Source: Uliginosibacterium aquaticum (GTDB lineage Bacteria > Pseudomonadota > Gammaproteobacteria > Burkholderiales > Rhodocyclaceae). Taken from it: DNA of 64,000 nt. Positions within the stretch are counted from its first letter, which is position 1, and the number at the start of each line of letters is the position of its first letter. Made by a program: the position numbers and the translations under genes. This document shows positions 38,216-45,542 of the stretch, in pieces. The stretch lies in contig NZ_JABCSC020000002.1 of the NCBI RefSeq assembly GCF_012972705.2, positions 186,001 to 250,000 on the forward strand, in the 5' to 3' direction. The notes under the pieces are model-generated. The model worked only from the letters and a program-made list of their open reading frames with translations. It was not told the DNA's origin and did no database searches.

Positions 38216-38268
38216 GGCTGACGGAATAGCATCAAAACGAAAGATCTGCATTTTAAGCGATGAAAGCT

Positions 38269-38297
38269 TTGACGAACCGAAAAAGCTTCCCTATAAT
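38269..38297 (+). promoter_or_regulatory. Sigma-70 promoter for tRNA-Val(CAC)
   Basis: TTGACG (38269-38274) and TATAAT (38292-38297) are separated by 17 bases, near consensus. The tRNA starts 44 bases after the -10. A GC-rich discriminator (CGGCCTC) follows the -10, as in stringently controlled stable-RNA promoters. Confidence 0.88.
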
Positions 38298-38340
38298 TCG
38301 GCCTCTCTTCTGACGGGAACGAAGTTTTTCCCAGTCATGC

Positions 38341-38416
38341 AGGCGGTTAGCTCAGTTGGTAGAGCACGTCCTTCACACGGACGGGGTCGTTGGTTCGAGT
38401 CCAATACCGCCTACCA
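38341..38416 (+). tRNA. tRNA-Val(CAC)
   Basis: A 76-base cloverleaf is present with CCA encoded. The acceptor pairs are AGGCGGT/ACCGCCT, the D arm is GCTCAGTTGGTAGAGC, the anticodon stem is CGTCC/GGACG with loop TTCACAC (anticodon CAC) and the T loop is TTCGAGT. It reads GTG codons. It is the second tRNA-Val in the window and stands alone with its own promoter and terminator. Confidence 0.95.
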
Positions 38417-38457
38417 AATATTTTTTCAGTCTGGAGTTAATGACTGAAAATCCTCAG

Positions 38458-38489
38458 AAAAGGCCTACAGCGATGCTGTAGGCCTTTTT
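38458..38489 (+). terminator. Intrinsic terminator after tRNA-Val(CAC)
   Basis: The stem AAAAGGCCTACAGC / GCTGTAGGCCTTTTT is perfect and ends in T5, 41 bases after the tRNA. The A-rich left side would make it work in both directions. Confidence 0.88.
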
Positions 38490-38957
38490 CGTTGCGCCAT
38501 ACTTCCAGCTCATGGACACCAGACTGAGTTGCAGCAGCCTGCATCTCAGCTTCTACCACGAAACTTTCGGAGGTTAAGCGTCTGACCACGCCACCTGAGC
38601 TGCGAACCCAGGACAGCGCAGTGCGTCTCGACCACCTCGAAAAGTCGCTATTGATGGCCTGCCGCCAAACATTGGGCGCAGAAAGCTTCGGTGCGAAGAT
38701 CTGGCCATAACCCCAGCAGCAAGAGCGCCTGCGAATCGTCTTCGGCCCGCGCGCGTACAAACCCATCACCAAGAAATAACGGCTCACACAAGCGATGACG
38801 ATCGCCTGACGTGCCGCCGCTACTGACTCAATCCAGGTCCCCAAAAATAGATATTCAACACAACTGGATAAGCATGGTGGAAATGCTTCGTTCCCACGCC
38901 TGAGTTGCCCTCGTAAATTGGCTGACACACAACAAAACAGCCAATTCAGGACACGTC
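38490..38957. other. Gap without a recognisable gene
   Basis: No frame here has a ribosome site, family resemblance or conserved motif. A 163-residue minus-strand frame spans most of it but runs through the tRNA terminator and looks like chance. The promoter of the downstream ABC transporter operon should lie near its right end; no clear -35/-10 pair was found. Confidence 0.5.
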
Positions 38958-39923
38958 ATGAAAAGAACGCTAGCGGCCGCCCTTCTCTTACTGAGCCTTA
39001 CCACGCAAACCTCGCACGCCACCGAGCCGCACGAAATCCGTCTCGGTTTTTCGTCCATCAATCCTGAAACCCGCATCGCCAAAGACAAGGGCTGGATCGA
39101 GGATGCACTCAAGTCACATGGCGTTACCGTCAAATGGGTCGAATCCCTGGGCAGCAACAAGAGTCTGGAATTCTTGCGTGGCAAGAACATCGACATCGCC
39201 TCGACCAGTTCGGCTTCCGCCTTCCTCGCACGCGCCAACGGCACGCCGATCAAGTTTGTGTACTGGACCGGCCGCAACTCGCACGGTGCGCCGATCCTGG
39301 TTCGCCACGACTCGCCTTACAAATCCATTACCGACCTGCGCGGCAAGAAAATCGCCGCTACCCCCGGCACCGGCCCGCTGATCTCGTTGATCGCCGCCCT
39401 GCACAAGCACGGCCTCACCGAAAAGGATGTCGAGATCGTCAGCCTGCAGCATGCGCAAGGGCGACTCGCGCTGGCTGCTGGTCGTGTCGAAGCCTGGGCC
39501 GCACTGGAGCCGGACTGGACCATCGCCGAAGTGCAGAACAAGGCCCGCATCCTGTTCGTCGACAAGAGTCTGGCCGGCGGTGGTGGGCTCAATGTGCGCG
39601 AGGAATACCTCAAGGCAAATCCGGAAATCGTGAAGATCGTACTGGCTCAATTCAATCGTGCCCGCGTCTACAGCAACCAGAATCCGGAACAAGCCATCAA
39701 GGATTTTGCCGAGTCATCCAAGGTCGATCTGGACGTTGCGCGCAAGGTCTTTCAGCGCTCGCTGGAGCAGAACGACAACCCGGAAATCGTGCCGCAAGAC
39801 GCCATCGATCTGGCTTTCTGGGGCGAGCTTTACAAGAAGCTGGGCTCGGTACCGGCCGATACGAATGTGGCCGCCGTCGTGAAGGACGTGCTGGACCCGA
39901 CCGTTTTCAAGCTGTCGAAATAA
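38958..39923 (+). CDS. ABC transporter substrate-binding protein, SsuA/TauA-like
   Basis: This is the periplasmic receptor of a nitrate/sulfonate/taurine-family importer. The 321-residue product has a signal peptide (cleaved about residue 21 after QTSHA) and the bilobed NMT1/SsuA fold: IRLGFSSINPETRIAKDKGW, GKNIDIASTSSASAFLARAN, LRGKKIAATPGTGPLISLIA and a second-lobe segment AAGRVEAWAALEPDWTIAEV. It is the first gene of a five-gene plus-strand cluster with permease, ATPase and two DszB-like proteins. The ligand is therefore probably an organosulfonate or sulfinate, but it is not determined. Confidence 0.88.
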   Translation: MKRTLAAALLLLSLTTQTSHATEPHEIRLGFSSINPETRIAKDKGWIEDALKSHGVTVKWVESLGSNKSLEFLRGKNIDIASTSSASAFLARANGTPIKFVYWTGRNSHGAPILVRHDSPYKSITDLRGKKIAATPGTGPLISLIAALHKHGLTEKDVEIVSLQHAQGRLALAAGRVEAWAALEPDWTIAEVQNKARILFVDKSLAGGGGLNVREEYLKANPEIVKIVLAQFNRARVYSNQNPEQAIKDFAESSKVDLDVARKVFQRSLEQNDNPEIVPQDAIDLAFWGELYKKLGSVPADTNVAAVVKDVLDPTVFKLSK

Positions 39924-39938
39924 GTCAGGGAGCGCACC

Positions 39939-40769
39939 ATGTCTGAACTGATCCTCAAACTGGTGCGCCCACTGGCCGCACCGGCCTGGCCCTACGCGCT
40001 GGCGCACCGCGCTGCTGCGATTGTCAGGCCCCTGATATTTCCGGCACTGATCCTCGCCGTGTGGCAAGGTCTGGGCAGCTTCTCACTGATTGACCCGGTG
40101 CTGCTGCCCACGCCTACCAAGGTGCTCGGCGCGCTGTATGAAATGGTCATCTCGGGTTATCTCAACCCGCATCTGGCCATCTCTTTCCAGCGTGTGCTGC
40201 TTGGCTTTGCCGCAGGTTCTGCTGTCGCCATCGTGATTGGTGCGCTCACCGGCTACTCGACCTGGTGGCGCTCCATCATCGACCCCACCATCCACGCCAT
40301 CCGCACCATTCCCGGCCTCGCCTGGATACCGATGTTCATCCTCTGGTTGGGGATCGATGAAGGCTCAAAGGTCGTGCTGATTGCCAAGGCTTCCTTCTTC
40401 CCGACTTATCTGAATTTCATGTCCGGCATCGCCCGGGCGGACCGCAAGCTCATCGAAGTCGGCCAGGTCTATCGGCTGCGCGGCGTCCGGCTGATCACCA
40501 AGGTACTGCTGCCGCACAGCCTGCCCTTCCTCTTCGTGGGCCTGCGCCAGTCGATGGGCGTGGCCTGGCTGGTGGTGGTGGCGGCGGAGCTGATGGGCGC
40601 CTCCAGCGGCATCGGATACGTGCTGCTCGACGGCGAAATGACCGGCCGTGCGCAGATCGTGATGGCCTGCATGATCGTCTTCGCCCTGTGCGGCAAGACC
40701 ACCGATCTCATCATCGCCCGCATCGCCCAGCGTGTGCTGAGCTGGCAAGACACGGTTGAAAAGGAATAA
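39939..40769 (+). CDS. ABC transporter permease, SsuC-like
   Basis: This is the inner-membrane channel subunit. The 276-residue product has about six helices and the cytoplasmic EAA loop (VGQVYRLRGVRLITKVLLPH, with the conserved Gly and LP) that docks the ATPase. It resembles SsuC/TauC permeases (GLAWIPMFILWLGIDEGSKV is the typical helix pair). It starts 15 bases after the receptor gene, with GGGAG before the ATG. Confidence 0.9.
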   Translation: MSELILKLVRPLAAPAWPYALAHRAAAIVRPLIFPALILAVWQGLGSFSLIDPVLLPTPTKVLGALYEMVISGYLNPHLAISFQRVLLGFAAGSAVAIVIGALTGYSTWWRSIIDPTIHAIRTIPGLAWIPMFILWLGIDEGSKVVLIAKASFFPTYLNFMSGIARADRKLIEVGQVYRLRGVRLITKVLLPHSLPFLFVGLRQSMGVAWLVVVAAELMGASSGIGYVLLDGEMTGRAQIVMACMIVFALCGKTTDLIIARIAQRVLSWQDTVEKE

Positions 40770-40782
40770 GGAAAACACCGCC

Positions 40783-41532
40783 ATGATCGACATCCAGAGA
40801 CTGGTCAAGAAGTTCGACGACTTCACCGCCCTCGGTCCGCTCGGCTTCACCTTCGACCAGGAGCGCATCCTCACCGTCATCGGCCCCAGCGGTTGCGGCA
40901 AGAGCACCCTGCTGCGCCTGCTCTCCGGGCTTGAAGCCCCCACGCAAGGCCGCATCCGCCTTGATGGCGAAACCATCAGCGGCCCGAACCCGCTCATCAG
41001 CGTTGCCTTCCAGGAACCGCGCCTGATGCCCTGGCTCACGGTCGCGCAGAACGTAGAGCTCGCCGTGTGGGATCGCCCCGATGCCGAACGCAAGGAAGCT
41101 GTACAAGCCGCCCTCGTCAAAGTGTCGCTCACCCAATTTGCCGATGCGCTGCCCAAGCAACTCTCCGGCGGCATGGCCCAACGTGTGGGGCTGGCCCGTG
41201 CGCTGGTCGGCAGCCCGCGCCTGCTCTTGCTCGACGAGCCATTCAGCGCGCTCGACCCGCTCACCCGCGTGCGCATGCAGGATCACTTGCTTGAAATCGT
41301 GGGCGACGACGGCCCCAATGTGCTGCTGATCACGCACGACATCGACGAAGCCATCGTGTTGTCGGATCGCATCATCGTGCTCGACGGCCCGCCCGCGCAG
41401 ATCCGCCGCGATCTGGTCGTCGACCTGCCCAAGCCGCGCAAACGCTCCTCGCGCGAGTTCCAGGAGATCAAGGAACTGCTGCTGGCCGACCTGCTGCCCG
41501 AGCGCATCGGTGCGCTGGAGGAAGCTGCCTGA
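40783..41532 (+). CDS. ABC transporter ATP-binding protein, SsuB-like
   Basis: This is the ATPase of the importer. The 249-residue product has Walker A IGPSGCGKSTLLRLL, Q-loop AFQEPRLMPWLTV, signature LSGGMAQRVGLARAL, Walker B LLLLDEPFSALD and switch His in LLITHDIDEA, all intact. The start at ATG 40783 (MIDIQRLVKKF) is preferred over 40756, which overlaps the permease end; AAGGA lies about 12 bases upstream. Confidence 0.92.
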   Translation: MIDIQRLVKKFDDFTALGPLGFTFDQERILTVIGPSGCGKSTLLRLLSGLEAPTQGRIRLDGETISGPNPLISVAFQEPRLMPWLTVAQNVELAVWDRPDAERKEAVQAALVKVSLTQFADALPKQLSGGMAQRVGLARALVGSPRLLLLDEPFSALDPLTRVRMQDHLLEIVGDDGPNVLLITHDIDEAIVLSDRIIVLDGPPAQIRRDLVVDLPKPRKRSSREFQEIKELLLADLLPERIGALEEAA

Positions 41533-41616
41533 TGAACGCCCGCTTCATACCTCCGCCCTGTAGCCGGCGCACCCAGCGCCAGCCCACCCCATCGCTCACG
41601 CAATAAAGGAACAGCC

Positions 41617-42696
41617 ATGACCCAAGCTCAGACCTCCGCCAGCGCACAGGAAGTGCTCTACACCATCTGCCCCGTTTTCGTGGCCTCCAACGTAGCGCTC
41701 GAACTCGGCATTCTCGACGAGGAATTCCGCCGCGTCGGCGCCACTCCGCGCTACCTGCGCTCGCTGCCGGACAACGCCGGCTGGCTGCCGCATTTCACGC
41801 ACTCCCTGCCCAAACTCTTCCGTGACGGCGGTGCGATTCCCACCATCCAGGCGCGCGCCGACCTCACCGACACCACCTTGATCGCCGCCACTTTCGCGCA
41901 GCGCGCGGGCCAGATTCTGGTGCGCACCGATTCCGGCATCCACCGCGTGGCTGATCTCAAGGGCCGCCGCATCGGTCTCACACGCAGCCTCGCTACCGAG
42001 AAGATCGACTTCGTGCGTGCCACCGCCGAACGCGGCATCGAACTCGCACTCGCCATCGCCGGGCTGGAGCGCAGCGAAGTTGACATCGTCATTCTCGAAG
42101 AAGTAGAAGCCAAGCCCGCCGCCCCAGCGAATCGCCCCGCCGAAAACTGGGGCTACCTGCATCGCCATGTTGCGCAAGACCTGTTGGCCCTGCAGGAGCG
42201 CCGCGTCGAAGCCATCTACAGCAGCCCGGCGCGCTCGGCCCCGCTGATCGCCAGCGGTGAATACAAGGTCATCGAAGATCTCGACCGCTATCCGGACTGG
42301 AGCTTGCGTGTCACCAACGGCCCCTACACCACTGCGGTCAACACCGAATTCGCCAAGGCCCATCCGGAAGTCGTCGTTGCCTGGCTGCGTGCCGCCATTC
42401 GCGCCGGTCAATGGATCAACGCCAACCGCCGCGCCGCCGCAGACATCTTTGCGCGCGTCACCACCTACCGCGATACCGAACAGATCGCCCGCCTGATTCA
42501 GGAATTCGACTTCGTCCCCAGCCTCTCGCCGCAAAACCTCGCCGGCCTCACGATCCAGAAGGATTTCCTGCGAAGCCACGGCTACGTGAAGAACGACTTC
42601 GCCATCGAAGACTGGGCTGACAGCCGCTACCTCGAAGAAGCCCACGCCTCACTGCGTGCCGAAGCCACACAAACAGGCCTGCGCAAAGCCGCCTGA
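41617..42696 (+). CDS. DszB-like putative sulfinate desulfinase, copy 1
   Basis: This 359-residue protein has the periplasmic-binding-protein fold of SsuA relatives but no signal peptide, so it should be cytoplasmic. It retains the active-site layout of DszB (2'-hydroxybiphenyl-2-sulfinate desulfinase; Cys27, His60, Arg70). Cys18 lies in LYTICPVFV, His59 in WLPHFTHS and Arg69 in FRDGGAIP; the His-Arg spacing of ten and the following GG-x-I-P match DszB. Automatic annotation would call it an ABC substrate-binding protein. Substrate unknown; cleavage of a C-S bond in an imported sulfinate is inferred. It follows the ATPase by 84 bases, with AAAGGA before ATG, and precedes a paralogue by 18 bases. 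Confidence 0.75.
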   Translation: MTQAQTSASAQEVLYTICPVFVASNVALELGILDEEFRRVGATPRYLRSLPDNAGWLPHFTHSLPKLFRDGGAIPTIQARADLTDTTLIAATFAQRAGQILVRTDSGIHRVADLKGRRIGLTRSLATEKIDFVRATAERGIELALAIAGLERSEVDIVILEEVEAKPAAPANRPAENWGYLHRHVAQDLLALQERRVEAIYSSPARSAPLIASGEYKVIEDLDRYPDWSLRVTNGPYTTAVNTEFAKAHPEVVVAWLRAAIRAGQWINANRRAAADIFARVTTYRDTEQIARLIQEFDFVPSLSPQNLAGLTIQKDFLRSHGYVKNDFAIEDWADSRYLEEAHASLRAEATQTGLRKAA

Positions 42697-42714
42697 GCCA
42701 CAAGGAGAATCACC

Positions 42715-43794
42715 ATGGGAATCCTCACTGAAACCGGCCTCGACCGCGCAGCGAGCACCGCCGTCACGCCTGTCGTCGCCCACTACACCATCTGCCCCGT
42801 ACTCGTCGCCTCAGGCGTCGCCAACGAACTGGGCTGGGTGGCCGAAGAGTTCCGCCGCGTCGGCGCCAGCCTCAGCTACCTGCGCTCCACGCCAGACGAG
42901 CACGGCTGGCTGGAGCACTACAACCACCAGTCTCCCAACCTGTTCCGCGATGGCGGCAACAGCCCGGCGATCCAGGCCAAAGCCGACATTCGCGACACCG
43001 TGTTGCTCGGCCTCACCCAGGCCCAGCCCGCCGGGAAGATCATCGCCCGGGCAGACGCCCCGATCTACAGCGTCGCCCAACTGCGCGGCAAACGCATCGG
43101 CCTCTACCAGAGCGCCATCACCGAGAAAATCGACTTCCGCCGCGCCACCAGCGAGCACGGCATCCATGTTGCCCTCGCCCTGCATGGCCTCAGCGAGAAG
43201 GATGTGGAGATCGTGAGCATCACCGCACCCGACGTGCACGTCGCCGAGCCCTCCAGCGGTCCCTCGGAAACCTGGGGTCGCCAGCGAGACAAGGCCGCAC
43301 GCGGTGTCGAACTGCAAGCGCTGGAGCGTGGCGAGATCGATGCCTACTACGAGTACGGCATTGGCCTTTCCGATACGCTGGAGCAAAGCGGAAAGTTCAA
43401 GGTGCTCGAAGACCTCGACCGCTACCCGGACTGGACACTGCGCATCGCCAACGCCCCGCGCACGCTGACCGTCAGCGCCGAGTTCGCCAAGGCCCACCGC
43501 GATGTCGTCGTCGCCTGGCTGCGCGCCGCCATCCGTGCCGGCCGCTGGATCAACGCCAACCCACAAGCCGCCGCTGCGGTCTTCGCCCGCACCACGTTCT
43601 ACCCGGAAGCCGCCGTGGCGAAACTGCTCCCCAGCTACGACCTCGTGCCCAATCTCTCGGCACAAAGCCTCGCCGGCTTGCGCCTCTCAAAAGACTTCCT
43701 GCGCGAGCACGGCTACGTGAAGAACGACTTCGACGTGAACACTTGGGCGGACAGCAGCTATCTGGAAGAAGCCCTGGCCAGCCTGCCAAGCTGA
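42715..43794 (+). CDS. DszB-like putative sulfinate desulfinase, copy 2
   Basis: This paralogue of the preceding gene is also 359 residues and also lacks a signal peptide. It keeps Cys27 (HYTICPVLV), His68 (WLEHYNHQ) and Arg78 (LFRDGGNSP), the same Cys/His/Arg layout as DszB with the ten-residue His-Arg spacing. The two copies share long segments (AKAHRDVVVAWLRAAIRAG; KDFLREHGYVKNDF; DLDRYPDW) but differ in the central region (residues 165-220) that would line the substrate pocket. This suggests different substrates or a heteromeric enzyme. AAGGAG precedes the ATG. It is the last gene of the cluster. Confidence 0.75.
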   Translation: MGILTETGLDRAASTAVTPVVAHYTICPVLVASGVANELGWVAEEFRRVGASLSYLRSTPDEHGWLEHYNHQSPNLFRDGGNSPAIQAKADIRDTVLLGLTQAQPAGKIIARADAPIYSVAQLRGKRIGLYQSAITEKIDFRRATSEHGIHVALALHGLSEKDVEIVSITAPDVHVAEPSSGPSETWGRQRDKAARGVELQALERGEIDAYYEYGIGLSDTLEQSGKFKVLEDLDRYPDWTLRIANAPRTLTVSAEFAKAHRDVVVAWLRAAIRAGRWINANPQAAAAVFARTTFYPEAAVAKLLPSYDLVPNLSAQSLAGLRLSKDFLREHGYVKNDFDVNTWADSSYLEEALASLPS

Positions 43795-43819
43795 AAGCCG
43801 GTCCGTTTAGCATGACCCT

Positions 43820-43852
43820 ATCGCTCAAGGCTGCGTCGCAGCCTTGAGCGAT
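43820..43852. terminator. Perfect 15-bp stem-loop after the desulfinase cluster
   Basis: ATCGCTCAAGGCTGC and its exact complement enclose a GTC loop, 26 bases after the stop. Only a weak T-rich tail (TTTCC) follows. It most likely ends the five-gene operon. Confidence 0.65.
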
Positions 43853-43950
43853 TTCCATTTGGCTATATGACAGCTAGTCGGCCAATGCCGTCATTCGGCC
43901 CACCTGATCTAAACGGCGGTAGTAAGAGCTAAAGCGGACTACGGACAACA

Positions 43951-44112
43951 AAACCCAAGGCGATTCAACTAGCAGCGATCATCGGCGTGGCACACCGTCT
44001 GGGGATCAAGGTCGTCGGCAAAGGCGTCGAAGCGCTGGCGTAGCTGGAGTGTCTACGCGTGCAAGGGTGTGACGAAATCCAGGGCTACTACTTCGCCCGC
44101 CCGCAGCCACAT
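43951..44112 (+). pseudogene. Degraded C-terminal fragment of an EAL domain
   Basis: EAL domains hydrolyse cyclic di-GMP. One frame reads KPKAIQLAAIIGVAHRLGIK, then VVGKGVEALA, a TAG stop (44041-44043), and LECLRVQGCDEIQGYYFARP. This is the end of an EAL domain, with GKGVE where AEGVE is expected and a stop at a usual Gln position. The N-terminal two thirds are missing (stop at 43930). Not functional; the remainder of 43.86-44.22 kb holds no gene. Confidence 0.8.
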
Positions 44113-44225
44113 TCGCCACGCTCTATCAGCAGGGTAAAACCCTGCATGCTGAGCCGGCAGCGTAGGCCTGTTGTTCAGATTCGACACCAAGAAGTCCGTG
44201 AAAGAAGTCCATGCACCATGTTTCA

Positions 44226-45542
44226 TCACCGGCGCACATGCTGCGCTTTCCTGGCCGAATAGCGCTCCATCAGTGGCGTAACCGATATGCCATGAACAAC
44301 AATCGAAACGACAACCACCGAGAGTGTCACCGCGACAATTTCGTCTGCAATGGGACGAGCCAGTCCGTGATTTATTGCGTACATCAGGTAGTAGATCGAA
44401 CCGATGCCACGAATACCAAACCAGGCAATCAAGGTGTGCTGGTCAGACAGCACGGGCGCCTTCAGCAAGCCTAGCCAGACAGAGACCGGCCTGATCACCA
44501 GGAATATCAACAGGACGACCCACGTGATCCGGAAATCAAACCGGAAGTAGGAAAGCATCGCCCCGATGATCAGCACCACAGCAAGCTCTGCAACACGCTC
44601 TAGCTGATCATTGAAGCCCTGCATCTGCTGCCGCATGAAGGCGCTGGCGTACTCGGAGTTGGTGGCAAGCGTTTCATTGGCGGTTCGGCTCTGAAGACCT
44701 GTCTCCCGCGCGACAAGCGCAGAGCTGTCCTCCGGGCGCTCCTTCACGCGCTGTAGTGCAAGTCCTGCTGCCAGTACCGCCAAAAATCCATTGGCATTGA
44801 CCATGACAGTTACGCCATAAGCCAGAGCAACCAGCCCCAGAGCCAGAAACTCGTCATGACCGACAGATTCACCGTGGCGGCTGCGCAGGTATACGACCAA
44901 ACGACCAATCAGGCTCCCCAAGAACCAGCCCGTCAGCAAGCCGCCGGAAATCGACCACAGCACATCCACACCGATCCAGCGCCAGCCCCACGTGCCAAGA
45001 TCATGCAGGCCCAGCAAGCCGAGGCCCAGCAACACGAAGGGAAATGCGGCGCCATCGTTCAGCCCACCTTCCCCGGTCAGACTGAAGCGCAAACGGTCAC
45101 GATCATTCGCCTCAAGGACTTGCACATCGGACGCCAGAACCGGATCGGTCGGCGCAAGAATGGCACCGAGAATAATCGATGCCCCCCATGGCAAACCGAG
45201 CCCGAAAACACCAATGGCACTGATCAGAAAAATGGTGATGACCATCGATACCGTCGCCAAGCGCAGCGGCAAGCGCCAACCCTTATTCGACAAGGGCAGA
45301 CCTAGTTTGAGGCCCACGGCGAACAGCGAGATCAGCACCGCAACCTCTGCCACGCGCTCGAGAACGATCGAATACGCAAACGGGTCTGGCGTAATAAAGG
45401 CCAATCCATCAGGTCCCAGCCCGTATCCGACCAGCAGATAGAGCATTGCCGTACTGACCGGAAGACGGCTCAAGAGAGTGCCAGACACGGCAATGGTCGT
45501 CAGCAAGACGCCAATGATGAGCGCCCATATTGCGAAATACAT
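44226..45542 (-). CDS. CPA1-type sodium/proton antiporter
   Basis: This is a cation:proton antiporter of the NhaP/CPA1 kind for pH and Na+ balance. The 438-residue product has about 12 membrane helices and the family motifs LVGYGLGPDGLAF, ILAPTDPVLASDVQVLE (TDP unwound helix), LTGEGGLNDGAAFPFVLL (ND carboxylate) and WFGIRGIGSIYYLMYAIN. I choose the ATG at 45542 (MYFAIWALIIGVLL); the frame extends to 45638 without support. Divergent from cfa with a 253-base spacer. Confidence 0.9.
   Translation of the reverse strand: MYFAIWALIIGVLLTTIAVSGTLLSRLPVSTAMLYLLVGYGLGPDGLAFITPDPFAYSIVLERVAEVAVLISLFAVGLKLGLPLSNKGWRLPLRLATVSMVITIFLISAIGVFGLGLPWGASIILGAILAPTDPVLASDVQVLEANDRDRLRFSLTGEGGLNDGAAFPFVLLGLGLLGLHDLGTWGWRWIGVDVLWSISGGLLTGWFLGSLIGRLVVYLRSRHGESVGHDEFLALGLVALAYGVTVMVNANGFLAVLAAGLALQRVKERPEDSSALVARETGLQSRTANETLATNSEYASAFMRQQMQGFNDQLERVAELAVVLIIGAMLSYFRFDFRITWVVLLIFLVIRPVSVWLGLLKAPVLSDQHTLIAWFGIRGIGSIYYLMYAINHGLARPIADEIVAVTLSVVVVSIVVHGISVTPLMERYSARKAQHVRR

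Follow-up and report, generated by a model that had tools for sequence, protein, structure and literature searches.

The 64,000-nucleotide stretch of the Uliginosibacterium aquaticum genome analysed here (the window) contains a five-gene cassette, SsuA-SsuC-SsuB-DszB1-DszB2, with all genes on the forward strand and the last two encoding homologues of the desulfinase DszB. We consider it probable (about 0.6) that this is a sulfur-starvation scavenging cassette, in which an SsuA-SsuC-SsuB importer would supply two independently active desulfinases that release sulfite and differ in substrate range. According to this proposal, the importer would take up organosulfur anions, DszB1 and DszB2 would each use their single Cys in the cytoplasm to attack an R-SO2- substrate at its C-S bond, with the two enzymes acting on different imported compounds, and the released sulfite would be passed to an assimilatory sulfite reductase. 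An importer feeding two desulfinases is the simplest reading of the cassette, and the imported compound is presumed to be a sulfinate because of the likeness to DszB and the missing oxygenases. The two proteins resemble related enzymes that have each specialised, more than two parts of a single complex.

Gene order and surroundings of the cassette

Both of the adjacent 359-residue reading frames reported in the preliminary description were found, and the strings quoted there for each copy were present in the translations (Table 1). DszB1 and DszB2 share one reading frame and are separated by 18 nt, with an AAGGAG ribosome site preceding DszB2. The spacing is 15 nt between SsuA and SsuC and 84 nt between SsuB and DszB1. 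The SsuB ORF opens with a TTG at 40756, but the likelier start is the ATG (MIDIQ) given in Table 1, with which the overlap between SsuC and SsuB disappears. The five genes are likely to form a single transcription unit; a simple scan detected no sigma-70-type promoter for the cassette. A hairpin scan returned five sites against 5.4 expected from shuffles, a count that is uninformative in itself, although the stem located behind DszB2 was by far the longest (15 pairs versus 5-6). No third DszB-like match was found in the 4.09 Mb host genome at E 0.001 or better with DszB1 as the query.

Table 1. Features of the cassette, in window positions
Feature	Coordinates	Strand	Evidence
SsuA-family periplasmic binding protein, 321 aa	38958..39923	+	TIGR01728 SsuA_fam 178.7 bits (cut-off 163.5); NMT1 Pfam match
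SsuC/TauC-like ABC permease	39939..40769	+	BPD_transp_1 82 bits; best NCBIfam match SsuC, 181.2 bits, below its equivalog cut-off of 347
SsuB/TauB-like ABC ATPase	40783..41532	+	ABC_tran 116.7 bits; ntrCD, TauB and SsuB models each below their own cut-off
DszB1, DszB-like predicted desulfinase, paralog 1, 359 aa	41617..42696	+	Cys18, His59, Arg69, Gly72; pLDDT 93.4; Z 31.1 to 2de3_B
Paralog-specific block of DszB1, residues 151-205	42067..42231	+	Overlaps DszB loop 3
DszB2, DszB-like predicted desulfinase, paralog 2, 359 aa	42715..43794	+	Cys27, His68, Arg78, Gly81; pLDDT 91.6; Z 31.8 to 2de3_A
Paralog-specific block of DszB2, residues 160-217	43192..43365	+	Paralog/ortholog alignment
Terminator-like hairpin behind DszB2, 16-nt perfect inverted repeat	43820..43852	+	Hairpin scan

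Comparison by blastn of the window with the 17-kb loci of two cassette-bearing sister species (L024 and L025) showed that the cassette alone matches, at 79-80% identity and with additional cross-matches between the copies. The match begins within SsuA and stops no more than 10 bases short of the DszB2 end, and no common surroundings were detected with either locus at blastn sensitivity. On these alignments, the cassette evidently moves as a unit. A tRNA-anchored island was considered and rejected, as the region 38250-44300 contains no direct repeat of the tRNA-Val end; a 19-nt inverted tRNA match inside SsuA (39879-39897, 89%) was taken as chance. Just behind the cassette, at 43955-44130, is a gene remnant with an in-frame stop that on reading resembles an EAL domain, perhaps a scar of the cassette's arrival.

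Relationship of DszB1 and DszB2 to DszB

DszB1 and DszB2 are 56% identical across 335 aligned positions. In phmmer searches against solved structures the top match of both was the 2'-hydroxybiphenyl-2-sulfinate desulfinase DszB (2de2), with E values of 5.8e-7 for DszB1 and 4.9e-10 for DszB2. An hhalign comparison of a 25-row family alignment with a plasmid-borne DszB gave a probability of 99.9. The predicted single-chain models were confident (pTM 0.91 for DszB1 and 0.89 for DszB2, values that say nothing on interfaces; pLDDT in Table 1), and the best fold match of both was DszB, with an rmsd of 2.9 over 319 aligned residues for DszB1 and of 2.8 over 318 for DszB2. The next match was SsuA in both cases (Z 25.1 and 25.2, respectively).

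The residues named for catalysis in DszB are Cys27, His60, Arg70 and Gly73 (PMC12168087). By alignment, equivalents of all four are retained in DszB1 and in DszB2, as the preliminary description had claimed for the active site, while a counterpart of DszB Trp155 is absent from both. DszB1 and DszB2 are best described as predicted sulfinate desulfinases of the DszB type. The earlier term "desulfinase-like" is right at the level of homology to DszB, to which both copies are only 22-24% identical.

Divergence and distribution of the two copies

The preliminary description had located the main difference between the copies around residues 165-220, and this was borne out. With a width of 55 columns, picked to fit that interval, the least similar stretch covers residues 151-205 of DszB1 and 160-217 of DszB2, where 14 of 55 columns are identical, a value as low as this being reached twice when the match string was shuffled 10,000 times. 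The stretch aligns with DszB 170-227 and includes loop 3 (residues 180-200), one of three DszB loops able to obstruct the active site (PMC12168087). Among the three pair-carrying species, identity in the block is 0.71 within DszB1 orthologs and 0.82 within DszB2 orthologs, but 0.29 between copies; in the rest of the alignment the values are 0.84, 0.83 and 0.59, respectively. Next to the catalytic residues, the changes F60Y, T61N, A73N and I74S distinguish the copies and are consistent within ortholog groups.

Both DszB1 and DszB2 are under purifying selection, with dN/dS values (NG86, three species) of 0.20-0.27 and 0.18-0.25, respectively. The three transporter genes gave 0.13-0.23, with SsuA and SsuC (0.13-0.16) slightly below both DszB copies. 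Purifying selection, together with conservation of the block within each copy, indicates that both genes are maintained and that the block is copy-specific and not decaying. Since divergence is strongest in a block overlapping the mobile active-site loop and also affects residues beside the catalytic ones, a difference in substrate range is the most likely explanation, and the two copies probably act on two different substrates. Of the two possibilities raised in the preliminary description, a heteromer or a split substrate range, these observations favour the latter. Two points weigh against a specificity reading based on the block: of the 59 positions fixed differently in the two ortholog groups, 42 lie outside it, and the block differs between subfamilies generally (relatives not belonging to the pair groups share only 31-40% of it with DszB1 or DszB2), so this region may simply evolve fast.

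The same activity encoded twice and retained for amount alone would also account for a shared fold, catalytic residues and operon, and extra dosage could help an enzyme of this type, as DszB is described as turning over slowly and being inhibited by its product (PMC12168087). We regard this as unlikely, given that the copies are only 56% identical and that 59 positions are fixed differently between their ortholog groups (16 of them within the block, here 61 columns wide, and 42 in the remaining 280 columns of the aligned core). The earlier argument against simple redundancy holds on the paralog-specific block over the lid-loop region, the differing positions beside the catalytic residues and purifying selection on both copies. 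Equal length, which had been part of that argument, is a coincidence: the copies are offset by about nine residues, their N- and C-terminal tails differ, and the orthologs measure 354 and 369 aa for DszB1 and 359 and 361 aa for DszB2.

An obligate or allosteric heteromer, with each protein dependent on the other, was the second possibility. Adjacency and order are constant in the three species that carry the pair, and DszB2 was found solely together with DszB1 (3/3), so that DszB2 may depend on DszB1. Eight genomes of the host genus were compared. The pair is present in the same gene order in three of them (host genome G000, G005 and G006), two carry a DszB1 ortholog ahead of SsuACB without DszB2 (G001 and G004), and neither copy was found in the remaining three (G002, which is 89% complete, G003 and G007). 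G001 additionally encodes a 32% identical relative beyond SsuACB. The preliminary description had suggested checking whether both copies are always adjacent in related genomes, and the outcome speaks against a heteromer. Among ten close-relative loci, an adjacent pair was found in four (G000, G005, G006 and L027) and a single gene in six (G001, G004, L026, L044, L045 and G1079). In three genomes of family f55, presumably Pseudomonas-like, distant homologues form adjacent pairs in which Ser replaces the catalytic Cys of one copy, as might be expected of a helper subunit in those genomes. Every catalytic residue tested is intact in both window copies. Single-copy relatives and a full active site in both proteins disfavour an obligate heteromer, which we consider quite unlikely.

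These counts refer to a list of relatives that is not exhaustive: contigs were scanned by exact peptide patterns, and samples of 399, 398 and 369 genomes used for wider searches yielded no close relative except G1079 and the host's own genome. L045 represents three near-identical plasmid records; L044 and L045 were covered by plasmid records alone, and L026 and L027 by fetched stretches alone. L027 carries the label Verrucomicrobiales MAG. Of 395 genomes of the host family, 13 encode DszB-like proteins (E 1e-20 or better), ten of them at least two, so several DszB paralogs per genome are common in the family. In the six multi-copy genomes outside the genus, the listed matches are never closer than about 1.5 kb, and a tight tandem is therefore not general there.

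The close subfamily of 14 sequences forms a single clade (100/100). In the best tree, DszB1 is joined by the single-copy proteins from G001, G004 and Herbaspirillum (80/92; G001 with G004, 97/93), and DszB2 is separate (100/100). None of the following was rejected by AU tests: a recent duplication within the cassette of the three species (p 0.273), DszB2 grouped with one or the other copy of L027 (p 0.419 and 0.061), both L027 copies as one clade (p 0.307) and DszB1 and DszB2 as one clade (p 0.491). The pair may thus stem either from a recent duplication or from an old split, and the L027 pair may be the same pair.

Sulfur economy, oxygenases and related systems

After the start residue, SsuA contains no Cys or Met in 320 positions, and DszB1 and DszB2 contain one each in 358, which in both is the catalytic Cys. 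The median Cys plus Met content of the 34 other ORFs of the window taken as genes is 3.1% (minimum 1.4%), and the cassette permease (3.6%) and ATPase (2.0%) are ordinary. A single Cys and no Met are reported for DszB itself, and sulfur sparing for sulfur-starvation proteins (PMC8557817). Such sparing is good evidence, from composition, that the cassette would serve sulfur starvation and that both copies would need their remaining Cys. Low sulfur content is common to most of the DszB family (43 of 47 sequences at or below 1.2% Cys plus Met, start Met counted) and may therefore be inherited family-wide. The sulfur-richer exceptions are the L044/L045/L084 branch (4.1-6.6%) and one L046 protein (2.9%); there are hints that this branch, not being sulfur-poor, could have another role.

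A very improbable alternative is that DszB1 and DszB2 are non-enzymatic cytosolic binding proteins or sensors derived from SsuA-type proteins: the SsuA/NMT1 fold, weak TIGR01728 scores, the name "ABC transporter substrate-binding protein" given to relatives in several public records and the lack of an N-terminal signal sequence recognisable by direct reading would fit, but the scores (62 bits for DszB1 and 73.8 for DszB2) are far below the SsuA cut-off of 163.5, both models match DszB better than any SsuA structure, and the lone Cys of a nearly sulfur-free protein is the catalytic one. The missing signal suggests that both proteins are cytoplasmic.

The SsuD, MsuD and 4S routes arrive at sulfite via oxygenase steps (PMC8557817, PMC13352529, PMC11852219). 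Profile searches of the host genome, which is 99.78% complete, gave no match to PF00296, PF02668 or PF08028, although each search gave matches in E. coli and one or more genus mates. We take these families to represent the SsuD/DszA, TauD and DszC types, respectively. The gene content is not that of the 4S pathway (dszABC), as no dszA- or dszC-type gene was detected in the operon or, by PF00296 and PF08028, in the genome. As none of these oxygenases was detected, a sulfinate would have to be taken up from outside or arise by another route. For the proposed product there are four NIR_SIR matches at three places in the host genome, one of them a 566-aa two-domain protein read as sulfite reductase. 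All three oxygenase families were also unmatched in G001 and G004, while G005 gave a single match, to PF00296, and G006 has all three; absence is therefore not general to cassette carriers. It is possible, though on balance doubtful, that this mobile sulfur-sparing cassette would be an oxygenase-independent sulfur supply from imported organosulfinates (or directly from sulfonates) for bacteria lacking flavin and TauD sulfonate oxygenases, with two substrate ranges set by the lid loops.

The cassette proteins resemble DszB in fold, in the Cys/His/Arg/Gly set, and in having one Cys and almost no Met, but differ from it in their low identity and in lacking the Trp155 counterpart. Unlike the DszB system, the cassette has two copies and an SsuABC-type importer in the operon, and a DszA- or DszC-type gene neither adjoins it nor was detected in the genome. 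In Rhodococcus qingshengii IGTS8, a chromosomal "SsuA/DszB" is numbered beside SsuA, SsuB and SsuD in a table of differentially abundant proteins (PMC8557817). This group is like the cassette in placing a DszB-like protein next to Ssu transporter components, among sulfur-acquisition proteins, but it includes the SsuD monooxygenase, whereas the cassette has none and the host genome no PF00296 match, and the table mentions no pair in IGTS8 (PMC8557817). The pairs of three f55 loci (L085, L086 and L088) are also similar, with two adjacent DszB-like genes clustered with Ssu-type ABC genes; they differ in being about 30% identical to the window pair and in the Ser that replaces the catalytic Cys of one copy, and the L086 cluster also has SsuD-like genes. 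DszB-like proteins near Ssu genes are already known, and the paired, apparently oxygenase-free cassette is a variant of this arrangement. Titles and the starts of abstracts in the open-access literature revealed no description of two DszB-like genes in an SsuABC cassette. If our main reading is true, an importer coupled straight to two desulfinases, in a genome unmatched by three oxygenase families, would make bacterial uptake of sulfinates as such directly testable, and comparison of the two loops could show how DszB specificity is determined.

Other relatives were observed in different contexts. In L085 (7856-8911), L088 (7906-8961) and L086 (7317-8708), the copy with the Cys to Ser change is free of cysteine and adjoins an intact copy, and could possibly be a natural pseudoenzyme partner. 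G572 is a fourth genome with an adjacent DszB-like pair, and Ser likewise replaces the catalytic Cys in single proteins of L047, L056 and L059. Relatives in L044 (5466-10894, a Rhizobium leguminosarum plasmid) and L027 (13491-15539) lie beside ATP-driven reductases of the double-cubane/2-hydroxyacyl-CoA dehydratase type (HGD-D/BadFG genes); HGD-D was matched in none of the eight genomes formed by the host and seven genus mates, so a link to such reductases does not explain the operon. In Herbaspirillum autotrophicum (L026, 5935-11365), a single DszB1 relative is located between a rhodanese with a gene read as TauD-like and a molybdopterin oxidoreductase.
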